A stretch of DNA of 64,000 bases from positions 372,001 to 436,000 of the forward strand of contig NZ_JALJRB010000001.1 of assembly GCF_022968795.1 (NCBI RefSeq), in the 5' to 3' direction. The notes under the pieces were generated by a model. It ran no database searches. It was not told the DNA's origin and was given only the letters and a program-made list of their open reading frames with translations. Position numbers and translations under genes: made by a program. The stretch comes from Desulfatitalea alkaliphila (lineage in GTDB: Bacteria; Desulfobacterota; Desulfobacteria; Desulfobacterales; Desulfosarcinaceae). Below, one piece after another: positions 10,235 through 14,694 of the stretch; position 1 is the first letter of the stretch; the number at the start of each line of letters is the position of its first letter.

Positions 10235-12688
10235 ATGGCCGACCGCACCGTATCCCTGCCGATCACCGGCATGACCTGCGCCAACTGCGCGGCCAATATC
10301 GAGCGCGGCCTGTCCAAGCTCGAAGGCGTGCGCCAAACCAATGTCAACTTCGCCAGCGAGCGAGCGGAGGTGGCCTACGACCCCGCGCAGGTGAAAGTGC
10401 CGGAGCTGGTGGCACGAATCCGCAAAAGCGGTTACGATGTACCCACCGCCCGCCTGGAGCTGCCCATCACCGGCATGACCTGCGCCAATTGCGCGTCCAA
10501 TGTGGAACGCACCTTGAACAAGAAGGTGGCGGGGGTGGTGGCGGCCGATGTCAATTTCGGCAGCGAACGGGCCCAGGTCACCTACCTGCCCGACCTGATC
10601 ACCGTGGAGCAGATGGTGGCGGCCATTGAAAAGGCCGGTTACGGCGCCATCGCCCCGGATGCGGCCGATGAGGACGGCACGGACGCCGAAGCGGCGGCGC
10701 GGCAGGCTGAAATCGCCGATCAAACCCGCAAGTTCATCGTGGGCGTGATCTTCGCCGCGCCCCTGTTCGTTTTGAGCATGTCCCGCGACTTCGCCCTCCT
10801 GGGCCCCTGGAGCCATGCGGCCTGGGTCAACTGGCTCTTCTGGGCCCTGGCCACGCCGGTGCAGTTCTACACCGGCTGGGACTATTACGTGGGCGGCTTC
10901 AAAAGCTTGCGCAACGGCAGCGCCAACATGGATGTCCTGGTGGCCCTGGGGTCCTCGGTGGCCTATTTTTATTCCCTGGCCCTGCTGCTGGTGCCGGGCA
11001 TCGGCGATCACGTTTACTTCGAAACCGCCGCAGTGATCATCACCCTGATCAAACTGGGCAAGCTGCTGGAAGCACGCACCAAGGGCAAGACCGGCCAGGC
11101 CATCCGCAAGTTGATCGGCCTGCAACCCAAAACCGCCGTCGTGATCGAGGATGGCGAAGAGCGGGAACTGCCTTTGGCCCAACTGGGGAAAGGGGTGGTG
11201 GTGATCGTGCGGCCCGGCGAACGCATGCCGGTGGACGGCGAGGTGCTGGAAGGCACCTCGGCGGTGGACGAATCCATGCTCACGGGCGAGCCCCTGCCGG
11301 TGGACAAAGGGCCCGGCGACACAGTGGCCGCGGGCACCATCAACGGCCAGGGACGGCTCAAATTCCGCGCCACGCGCGTGGGCCGGGAAACCGCCCTGGC
11401 CCAGATCATCCGCCTGGTGCAGGAAGCCCAGGGCAGCAAGGCCCCCATTCAGGCCCTGGCCGACCGGGTGGCGGCGATTTTCGTGCCGGCGGTGATGGGC
11501 ATCGCCCTGGCGGCCTTCGCCATTTGGTGGACGGCCACCGGCGATTTCGTCCCTTCCATGATCCGCCTGGTGGCCGTGCTGGTGATCGCCTGTCCCTGCG
11601 CCCTGGGACTGGCCACGCCGACGGCCATCATGGCCGGCACGGGCAAGGGCGCGGAAAAGGGCATCCTCTTCAAGAAGGCTGAAGGACTGGAGCGCAGCAC
11701 CCACCTGGATGCGGTGGTGCTGGACAAGACCGGCACCATCACCGAAGGAAAACCGGCCGTGGTGGCGGTGCATGCGCTCAACGACACACTGGCCTCGGCG
11801 CAGGAGGCGCTTTTTTGGGCCGCCGCCGCCGAGCGGGGTTCCGAACATCCCCTGGGCAAGGCCATCGTCCGCGCGGCCCGGGAAAAGGACCTCCATCCGC
11901 CGGAGCCGGAGGATTTCCAGGCCGAAGGCGGCGCCGGTGTGTCAGCGGTTGTAAATGGCCGGCGGGTCCGGGTGGGCAAGCCGGGCTGGTTCGACGAAGC
12001 CACGGCCCAAGGCCTGCAAGCCGCATCGCAACAGGTGCAACGCATGCAGTCCGAAGGGCACACGGTGATGGTGTTGGCTTTGGACGATAAAGCAGCGGGC
12101 CTGATCGCCGTGGCCGACACCCTCAAACCCGACTCCCGTGAGGCCATCGATGCCCTGCACCGCATGGGGCTGAAGGTGGTGATGCTCACCGGCGACAACC
12201 AGCAGACCGCCCGTGCCATGGCCGACCAGGTGGGCATCGACGAAGTGTTCGCCGAGGTGCGCCCCGAGGAGAAGGCGGCCAAGGTCCAGGAGCTCCGCGA
12301 CCAGGGCCTGCGGGTGGCCATGGTGGGCGACGGTATCAACGATGCCCCGGCCCTGGCGCAAGCCGATCTGGGCATGGCCATCGGCACCGGCACCGACGTG
12401 GCCATCGAAACCGCCGATGTGATCCTCTCCAGCGGCCGCCTGACCGGCATTCCGCGAGCCATCGCCGTGGGCCGCCGGACCATGGCCACGGTGCGCCAGA
12501 ATCTTTTCCTGGCCTTCATCTACAACGTGACGCTGATCCCCGTAGCGGCCGGCGTGCTGGCACTGGTGGCCGGCATGCCCCAAATGCTGCGCGAACTGCA
12601 CCCCATCCTGGCCGCTTTGGCCATGGCGTTGAGCAGTATCTCGGTGGTGTCCAACAGTCTGCGTTTGTATAAGGCGAAGATAGATTAA
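10235..12688 (+). CDS. copA: Copper-translocating P1B-type ATPase CopA
   Basis: An 817-residue Cu(I)-exporting P-type ATPase. Two N-terminal heavy-metal-associated domains each carry GMTCANC (residues 12-18 and 80-86). The transmembrane CPC metal site is at 453-455 ([13 protein letters not shown]), the phosphorylated Asp at 497 in DKTGTITEG, and the hinge motif [16 protein letters not shown] follows. Eight membrane helices are expected. The ATG at 10235 is used; an in-frame TTG 6 nt upstream also has AAAGGAG nearby. It pumps cytosolic copper outward and is the third gene of the sigma-54-type metal-stress operon. Confidence 0.95.
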
Positions 12689-12786
12689 GAGATCGGGTTT
12701 GTTGAGTTTATCGGCGATCCAAATCGTCGTTCGCGTACTCAGCCCCGAAGGGGCGGTTCTCGTACGCGTACTCGAAAAGGTGCAAA

Positions 12787-12954
12787 ATGTTCGACCATGA
12801 AAGACTTGACGTATACCGTGTCAGCATGACTTTTGTTGCCCGGGCATATCGTTTGTGCAAAAGGCTCAAGGGTATTGATCGCCATGCCAGGGATCAACTA
12901 TTGCGTTCCTCTCAATGCTGGGAAAGATGTCTCGGCACCGATGCAGGTTCGTGA
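12787..12954 (+). pseudogene. Internally deleted four-helix-bundle gene
   Basis: The first 45 or so codons match the intact copy at 13148 almost perfectly, then about 185 bp corresponding to roughly 13280-13463 are missing. The reading frame is shifted and stops at TGA 12952-12954, leaving a 55-codon fragment that lacks two or more helices. The DNA after the deletion still matches the end of the intact copy, so the lesion is a clean internal deletion. Confidence 0.85.
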
Positions 12955-13147
12955 GAGTAGCGATTACGAGTACGCGTACGAGAACGAGTACGAGAACGAA
13001 TAATTCGGAAGAACGTCGCCAATCAATAGCTGGAGGCGACGTAAAAAAGCGGCGCGCTTCAGCTTGGTGTTGGGTGATCCAAAATCGTCGTACGCGTACT
13101 CAGCCCCGAAGGGGCGGTTCTCGTACGCGTACTCGAAAAGATGCAAA

Positions 13148-13570
13148 ATGTTCGACCATGAAAGACTTGATGTATACCGTGTCAGCATGACTTTTGTTGC
13201 CTGGGCATATCGTTTGTGCAAAAGGCTCAAGGGTTTTGATCGCCATGCCCGGGATCAACTATTGCGTTCCTCTCAATCGATTCCACTGAATATCGCTGAG
13301 GGCAATGGAAAGCCCCCTTCAGCGGATCGTAATCGGTTTTTCCGAATTGCTCTTGGCTCTGCACTCGAATGTGCTGCCACAATAGATGTTTTGATTGCAT
13401 GCGAAGCAATTGATTCAAAAACCGGTAATGATGGTAAACGTCTTCTTGTTCGTATCGTTTCGATGCTGGTAAAGATGTCATCGGTGCCGATGCAGGTTCG
13501 CGAGAGTAGCGAGTACGCGTACGCGTACGAGTACGAGAACGAGTACGATAACGATAACGAGAACGAATAA
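13148..13570 (+). CDS. Four-helix-bundle protein (S23/IVS-encoded family)
   Basis: A 140-residue protein of the four-helix-bundle family (TIGR02436-like), first known from open reading frames in 23S rRNA intervening sequences. The motifs DVYRVSMTFV, LLRSSQSIPLNIAEG and FFRIALGSALECAATID are typical. The start is placed at the ATG of MFDHERLDVYR; an in-frame upstream extension of 28 codons encodes only the repeat. The C-terminus ends in an odd Tyr/Glu/Asn/Asp-rich tail (EYAYAYEYENEY...) produced by hexamer repeats. It sits in an intergenic repeat element, not in an rRNA gene. The family also resembles Avd of diversity-generating retroelements, but no reverse transcriptase is nearby. Molecular function is unknown. 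Confidence 0.83.
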   Translation: MFDHERLDVYRVSMTFVAWAYRLCKRLKGFDRHARDQLLRSSQSIPLNIAEGNGKPPSADRNRFFRIALGSALECAATIDVLIACEAIDSKTGNDGKRLLVRIVSMLVKMSSVPMQVRESSEYAYAYEYENEYDNDNENE

Positions 13571-13752
13571 TGTGGAAGGACGTCGCCAACCAACAGCCCC
13601 GAGGCGACGTAAAAAACGGCGCGCTTCAGGTTGGTGTTGGGCGATCCAAAATCGTCGTTCGCGTACTCAGCCCCGAAGGGGCGGTTCTCGTACGCGTACT
13701 CGAAAAGGCGCAAAATGTTCGACCATGAAGGGTTTTTTGGGTTGGGGGTGTG

Positions 13753-14694
13753 ATGATTCAGACGCATACCATCGGCATTGTGGGGACCGGTCAGGTGGGG
13801 ATGGCGGCGGGGTACGCCGTTTTCTTGCTGGGTTTGGCCAACGAGATCATCCTGATCGACAAAAACCGGCAGCGGGCCGAAGGCGAGGCCATGGACCTGA
13901 TGCACGGGCAGGCCTTTGCCGGGCGGGTGACGGTGCGGGCCGGTGATTATGGCGATCTGGCGGCCGCCCAGGTGGTGATCGTCACGGCCGGTGTGGCCCA
14001 GCAGCCGGGGGAGTCGCGGCTGGACCTGCTCAACCGCAATGCGGCGGTGTTCCGGGAAATCGTCGGTCAACTGGACCGCCACTGCCCCAAGGCGGTACTG
14101 ATCATCGCCAGCAATCCGGTGGATGTGCTGACCTACGTAACCCAGGCTCTTTCCAACCGTTCAGCCAAGCTGGTGATCGGCACCGGCACCATGCTGGACA
14201 CGGCGCGGTTCCGCGCTTTGCTGGGGCAGCACTACGATGTGGATCCCCGCTCGGTGCACGCTTATATTTTTGGGGAACACGGCGACTCGGAGGTGCCTGT
14301 CTGGAGCTCGGCCACCATCGGCGGCGTTCCCCTGGTGGACCACACCATCGCCGGCAAGCCCTTTGACCGGGAGGCCATGGCGCGGCTTTTCGGGAATGTA
14401 CGCGATGCGGCCCAGGAAATCATCAGCCGCAAGGGATACACCAACACCGCCATCGGCACCGCCATAGCCCGTCTGGTGCGGGCGGTGCTGGAGGATCAGC
14501 GGTCGGTGCTGCCGGTGAGTCGACGGCTGGACGGACAGTACGGGATTGACGATGTGTGCTTGAGCATTCCCACCATCGTGGGCCGCCATGGCGCGGCGGA
14601 TACGTTGCTGCCCAAGCTCGATGATGTGGAATCGGCCGGTCTGCGCCGCTCGGCAAAGATTCTGCGGGAGCGCCTGGACGGCATCTCATTGTGA
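13753..14694 (+). CDS. ldh: L-lactate dehydrogenase
   Basis: A 313-residue NAD-dependent dehydrogenase of the lactate/malate family. It has GTGQVG (Rossmann motif), DKNRQRAEGEAMDL, the specificity loop QQPGESRLDL with Gln at the position that is Arg in malate dehydrogenases, SNPVDVLTY, and the catalytic His in GEHGDSEVP. The Gln marks lactate (pyruvate) as substrate. The ATG at 13753 is used; a GTG lies 3 nt upstream. The start is only 24 bp after the partial third repeat copy, so its promoter probably lies within the repeat. The 3' end overlaps the next, convergent gene by 9 bp. Confidence 0.88.
   Translation: MIQTHTIGIVGTGQVGMAAGYAVFLLGLANEIILIDKNRQRAEGEAMDLMHGQAFAGRVTVRAGDYGDLAAAQVVIVTAGVAQQPGESRLDLLNRNAAVFREIVGQLDRHCPKAVLIIASNPVDVLTYVTQALSNRSAKLVIGTGTMLDTARFRALLGQHYDVDPRSVHAYIFGEHGDSEVPVWSSATIGGVPLVDHTIAGKPFDREAMARLFGNVRDAAQEIISRKGYTNTAIGTAIARLVRAVLEDQRSVLPVSRRLDGQYGIDDVCLSIPTIVGRHGAADTLLPKLDDVESAGLRRSAKILRERLDGISL

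Follow-up and report, generated by a model that had tools for sequence, protein, structure and literature searches.

Tandem copies of a repeat-armed S23 element in Desulfatitalea alkaliphila and the co-variation of S23 proteins with their hexamer arms

Introduction

At 12713-13729 of the window (the whole stretch of DNA that was analysed, 64,000 nucleotides of Desulfatitalea alkaliphila contig NZ_JALJRB010000001.1) lie what are probably tandem copies of an S23 element with repeat arms, in which the protein is paired with its own repeat-arm palindrome and which is moved by other recombinases. The element is dispersed, protein and repeat type co-vary, the arrangement is spread across phyla, and gene-less forms move in a MITE-like manner. 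A four-helix-bundle protein with the S23/Avd fold is encoded between inverted hexamer arrays that fold into a long stem; in the proposed mechanism, it would recognize this armed hairpin in its RNA or single-stranded DNA form. Because the unit encodes no recombinase, copying would be carried out by enzymes in trans, namely IntI acting at G|TT junctions in the window genome and in Rhodopirellula, and putative DDE-type transposases acting on the gene-less palindromes of relatives. RNA cleavage of the unit transcript and some benefit to the host may also belong to this mechanism.

The function of S23, or intervening-sequence, proteins has been a question since their discovery in rRNA insertions. 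An S23 subfamily that predicts its own arm sequence across phyla would turn this question into a binding assay, with own and foreign arms as built-in controls, and would connect rRNA intervening sequences, intergenic hexamer/heptamer repeats, and those MITE-like palindromes that have a repeat core. No prior report of a pairing between S23 and repeats was found in the open-licence papers searched, and the observations suggest that the repeat-armed S23 unit is a little-recognized kind of protein-linked repeat element.

Structure of the Locus Between copA and ldh

The region consists of two head-to-tail units and the 5′ end of a third, and is situated between copA and ldh, not inside an rRNA gene. 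The 5′ flank occurs three times as direct repeats (12683-12801, 13044-13162, and 13611-13729), and a 196-nt direct-repeat pair of 97% identity is also present. The triple flank and the internally deleted copy had both been described in an earlier sequence-only reading, and direct-repeat comparison found them real and at the positions it had given.

Unit 1 (12713-13069, plus strand, as are all features below) comprises a 5′ hexamer arm with a mini-hairpin, the remnants of an S23 ORF whose middle is deleted, a 3′ hexamer arm (12964-12999), and a 3′ tail. It meets unit 2 at a G|TT joint (13069/13070). Unit 2 (13070-13636) is complete and runs from TTGGGTGATCC to CAGGTTGGTG, its ends having been compared with dispersed copies. 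Its 5′ arm (13085-13135) is an array of (TCGNNN) hexamers broken by the G+C-rich mini-hairpin TCAGCCCCGAAGGGGCGGT (13100-13118; form TCAGCCCCGAAGGGGCGG), of which the related forms TCAGCGAAGCGG and TCAGTGAAACGG are found in other hosts. The intact S23 ORF (13148-13570, 140 aa) ends in an acidic tail, EYAYAYEYENEYDNDNENE, which is the in-frame translation of the (CGANNN) hexamers of the 3′ arm (13510-13566). The weakly attC-like 3′ tail (13571-13636) contains the inverse-core-like CGCCAAC, the stem ACGTCGCC/GGCGACGT, and the end TTGGTG; as the earlier reading had noticed, this stem is retained in both copies with different loops.

Unit 3 (13637-13729) is represented by its first 93 bases only and stops just past the S23 start codon. 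This start is fused to the ldh leader in a short ORF of 12 codons, MFDHEGFFGLGV (13715-13753), whose TGA shares bases with the ldh ATG (TGATG), and a leader or translational-coupling role for ldh is possible. The proposal that the third flank serves as the ldh promoter did not hold up, as no sigma-70-like site was found there.

The 18-nt inverted arms reported earlier are real (12756-12777 with 12964-12985, 95% complementary), but their repeat nature and their link to the protein had been missed. Each arm is an array of hexamers: the left one follows the pattern (TCGNNN)n, and the right one (CGANNN)n, with the 3′-side hexamers GAGTAC, GAGAAC, and GATAAC. Because the arms are arrays, many alternative pairings are possible, and 38 arm pairs were found at the locus. 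A search of Rfam gave no match. The predicted RNA fold of unit 2 pairs the 5′ arm with the 3′ arm (z -3.36), as in rRNA intervening sequences.

This pairing is also what would be seen if the unit were an intervening-sequence-like RNA element, an explanation that we regard as fairly unlikely. Here, the arms would form a long transcript stem cut by RNase III, removal from operon mRNAs would make the insertion harmless, S23 would be a passenger ORF, and the repeats would be slippage products in the stem. The 23S rRNA intervening sequence of Coxiella offers a precedent: RNase III excises it, its terminal stem is 28 bp long, and its S23 ORF is immediately preceded by heptamers GACAGAT (PMC4990558). 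In Leptospira, too, a long stem closes the S23-bearing intervening sequence, and the window unit is likewise predicted to loop out its S23 ORF from such a stem. Some S23 genes are moreover situated between genes of the same pathway, such as cas6/cas4 or the ribonucleotide reductase subunit genes. Unlike the rRNA insertions, however, the window unit lies outside rRNA, has long inverted arrays that match its S23 subfamily, and is accompanied by dispersed gene-less palindromes with target duplications.

The S23 Protein

The ORF of unit 2, taken from the sequence alone to encode an S23-type four-helix bundle, does so by profile comparison: it scores 77.3 bits against PF05635 (cut-off 33.8; E 1.2e-21) and 72.4 bits against TIGR02436 (cut-off 24). 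PF05635 is the only Pfam family found in the unit's protein. The AlphaFold2 model (mean pLDDT 85) matches best the S23 proteins 2gsc and 2rld, followed by Avd (4dwl/8ub7). The scores above the curated cut-offs and the four-helix-bundle fold thus place the protein in the S23/23S_rRNA_IVP family.

The fold is shared with Avd of diversity-generating retroelements, whereas sequence identity is only ~10% and the unit contains neither reverse transcriptase nor template repeat. Avd is a protein of retroelement ribonucleoproteins. Most likely, the S23 protein would bind the hairpin formed by its own arms, whether RNA or single-stranded DNA. Among the related loci described below, the ORF runs into the right array in 51/65 cases, in the one frame that places D or E at alternate positions. 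The acidic tail that results is left unexplained if the ORF is a mere passenger of a transcript stem.

Copies in the Same Genome and in Congeners

Further copies are present at five sites on four other contigs of the same genome (C56, C6, C45 with two sites, and C13). All five are internally deleted and none has an intact ORF. The interval between copA and ldh in two congeners consists of a few dozen bases and contains no unit. Copy number and presence at the same locus in all relatives had been named beforehand among the points on which the idea of a mobile element could fail, and both came out in its favor. Local duplication alone is ruled out by the dispersed copies. Together with the S23 ORF and the inverted ends, these copies bear out the earlier view of a discrete, non-autonomous unit of mobile type.

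The copies in this genome have G|TT junctions and head-to-tail tandem joints, with one exception, the 3′ junction of the C56 copy, which is G|TG. No target-site duplication was seen at the copies in this genome, and the combination of TIRs and a target-site duplication that marks a MITE was not found for the window unit.

Armed S23 Genes Across Phyla

GTDB genomes were scanned with a five-sequence alignment, giving 80 loci of this S23 subfamily. They span Desulfobacterota (Thermodesulfobacteriota), Planctomycetota, Lentisphaerota, Pseudomonadota, Acidobacteriota, Chloroflexota, Calditrichota, Verrucomicrobiota, Kiritimatiellota, Riflebacteria, Sumerlaeota, and Hydrogenedentota, and the layout of a gene plus arms recurs in at least 10 bacterial phyla. 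Arrays were called as (TCGNNN)2TCG within 200 nt upstream and (CGANNN)2CGA downstream in the 76 loci with enough flank. A left array was found in 63/76 loci and a right array in 62/76, compared with 17/951 and 25/951 background windows of the same loci, i.e., 2-3% (Fisher p < 1e-60). In the lag profile of the arrays, the only peaks are those at 6 and at its multiple, 12. The mini-hairpin is present upstream in 31/80 loci vs. 3/982 background windows.

Arm length varies by whole repeat units between near-identical copies, a point in favor of slippage in a transcript stem. The idea that S23 units generally have outer TIRs was rejected: only 6/73 exceeded the control, and several of these fell inside repeats or attC. 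Searches of IMG/VR, phages, and plasmids gave no match to this subfamily.

Repeat Type and the Protein Tree

When the hexamer class is defined as the base preceding each TCG in the array, it requires 6 changes on the S23 tree, a tree of low resolution (built from 116 columns, with 35 of 67 branches open), against a mean of 26.4 and a minimum of 20 in shuffled data. Shuffling within phyla gave a minimum of 11 changes, and host phylum on the same rows of the tree requires 21. Cross-phylum pairs of at least 70% identity have the same hexamer class in 91% of cases, vs. 20% for pairs at 50-60%. The classes are told apart by a single N-terminal residue, the one before H4: where it is D, C-type hexamers prevail 26:1, and where it is another residue, the ratio is 0:35.

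These results suggest that the protein and the repeat type travel as a pair, in inheritance as well as in transfer. Common ancestry of gene and arms, as a whole locus, must explain part of this co-variation. Nevertheless, because the repeat type persists through many host changes, recognition of the repeat by the protein is suggested. A transcript stem with a passenger ORF leaves unexplained why the repeat type tracks the protein tree.

Co-evolution of repeat type and protein is also known from the REP/REPIN elements with their RAYT proteins (PMC2817692, PMC3116915), which resemble the S23 unit further in having inverted palindromic repeats around the gene and dispersed, intergenic, non-autonomous palindromes. 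On the other hand, the S23/Avd four-helix bundle has no HUH/Y1 tyrosine transposase domain, and its tandem repeats, which are 6-, 7-, or 8-mers, lack a GTAG head. Because its protein is not a HUH transposase, the S23 unit is not a member of the REP-RAYT group.

Links to Integrons

Rhodopirellula solitaria has eight S23 units, seven of them ~96-99% identical, with the sharp ends G|TTCTGG...ACCG|TT. One is situated in an integron array, with intI ~1.5 kb away, and the neighboring attC sites share the stem geometry of its 3′ end. In Rhodopirellula, S23 units are therefore integron cassettes. The units of the window are likely to be cassettes as well. Their G|TT junctions and head-to-tail joints resemble those of gene cassettes, and intI is encoded in the same genome on contigs C10 (408.8 bits) and C24 (350 bits; cut-off 265). 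An integron integrase gene on C17 of this genome (L216 9980-10940) is apparently split by a frameshift.

The weak point of the likeness is the attC structure. At the 3′ end of the window unit, the core complement CGCCAAC/GTTGGCG is accompanied by a weak L stem and resembles attC weakly, whereas R″/L″/L′/R′ are clear in R. solitaria; most hosts show no attC structure. That S23 units in general carry attC was considered and rejected: 28 of the 80 loci matched vs. 9.7 expected, but outside Pirellulales the matches are mainly in repeats. Likewise, hexamer palindromes were discarded as integron-array parts in Desulfatitalea, as no hexamers occur in the stretches examined beside intI.

One could go further and regard the units as plain integron cassettes, S23 being one more cassette gene that IntI has spread into attI, attC, and secondary G|TT sites, with the hexamers incidental. 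The R. solitaria arrays and the junctions and tandem joints of the window genome fit this explanation, as does the presence of intI above the curated cut-off in 12/13 genomes of the first set and of a strong intI match in 12/20 S23 genomes. It is nonetheless improbable, since core/inverse-core matches among the 80 loci are largely confined to Pirellulales, with most others falling in repeats, and since arms occur without attC in most hosts. Moreover, the gene-less palindromes have target-site duplications, and IntI makes none.

Gene-Less Palindromes and Their Mobility

The hexamer-palindrome pattern, counted with overlaps, has 111 matches in G006, 32 in G001, 528 in G053, 294 in G073, and 236 in G072, vs. 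0-2 for a reversed-pattern control. In the second genome set, palindromes are present in 15/21 genomes with the S23 subfamily vs. 1/9 without any S23 (p 0.004), while the subfamily is missing from G006, which has more GAGTAC palindromes than any other Desulfatitalea genome. In G070, one of the 15, the palindromes adjoin the S23 gene. The hexamer type at the S23 gene of G001 differs. Because of G006 and G001, S23 is not needed for the palindromes to spread at present.

Two palindromes of G007, the congener Desulfatitalea sp. UBA4791, have exact empty sites in G002. They have imperfect 5-bp duplications of type CTNAG and the ends TACAC...GTGTA. Palindromes in G053 end in GGCATCYTTCAT and have 8-bp duplications, with a mean of 6.5/8 matches vs. 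2.9 for mixed pairs and 6/12 perfect; those of G006 have 9-bp duplications, perfect in 3/5 cases. These target duplications of 5, 8, or 9 bp indicate that the gene-less palindromes move as MITE-like elements, and an RNA element removed from operon mRNAs does not account for them. Like MITEs, the gene-less forms are short, palindromic, and non-autonomous, with TIRs. Unlike MITEs, they carry a hexamer core common to unrelated TIR families. They may be derivatives of S23 units, although their outer ends vary from genome to genome.

If these were ordinary MITEs accompanied by local duplications, a DDE transposase family would by chance have mobilized a palindrome with an S23 gene inside, with no functional link between protein and repeat. 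The TIRs and target duplications in G006, G007, and G053 are in keeping with this, as is an S23 unit of G053, in which TIRs AGTTTTCGAA form the ends and the 10-bp direct repeats CCGGGAAAAC are offset from the left end by four bases. We consider it very improbable, given that arms and gene are associated across phyla despite unrelated outer ends and that each S23 subfamily has a different repeat.

Other S23 Subfamilies and Heptamer Repeats

Hexamer arms were absent from all 23 S23 genes of relatives that lie outside the subfamily (0/23). Out-of-subfamily genes have inverted heptamer arms instead (lag-7 identity 0.66/0.71 vs. 0.43), and in 21/24 of them the left and right arms match better than 95% of mixed pairs. 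Heptamer arms are present at most of 11 S23 genes on cyanobacterial plasmids, which belong to other subfamilies (lag-7 identity 0.77/0.82 vs. 0.44 in a set of twelve), and a Gemmatirosa S23 gene has octamer arms. Intergenic 7-nt tandem repeats (TAACTGA) of cyanobacteria and Beggiatoaceae have been reported as direct repeats, with S23 unmentioned (PMC4679880). Lineages such as cyanobacteria also have heptamer-armed S23 genes, a likeness of repeat length and lineage.

A tentative generalization, which we would not yet expect to hold in full, is that S23 proteins are dedicated partners of inverted 6-, 7-, or 8-mer arms, with one sequence type per subfamily. They would then form a phylum-spanning class of elements from which rRNA intervening sequences, as well as some of the cyanobacterial and other intergenic heptamer repeats, were derived, the protein reading the repeat and directing or protecting the copying of the palindrome.

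Several individual loci are recorded here in addition. The window genome has a second S23 gene (C38, L017 ~2190-2680), which adjoins a tgt-like gene and has inverted heptamer arms AAGTGTT/AAGTTTT. Heptamer-armed S23 genes are situated between cas6 and cas4 of CRISPR loci on plasmids of Anabaena sp. 90 (L348, 1183-1551) and Pseudanabaena galeata (L350, 1189-1548). On the Nostoc edaphicum plasmid pNe_5 (L344, 1183-1551), an S23 gene armed with (TAGGGAG)n is flanked by the two genes for the ribonucleotide reductase subunits and runs opposite to them. Finally, G002, a genome without hexamer palindromes, has dozens of occurrences of ACTTAAAACTTTACACTTAACGCTTTAAACTT (L044 ~1590-1650), which looks like a heptamer counterpart of the hexamer palindromes.
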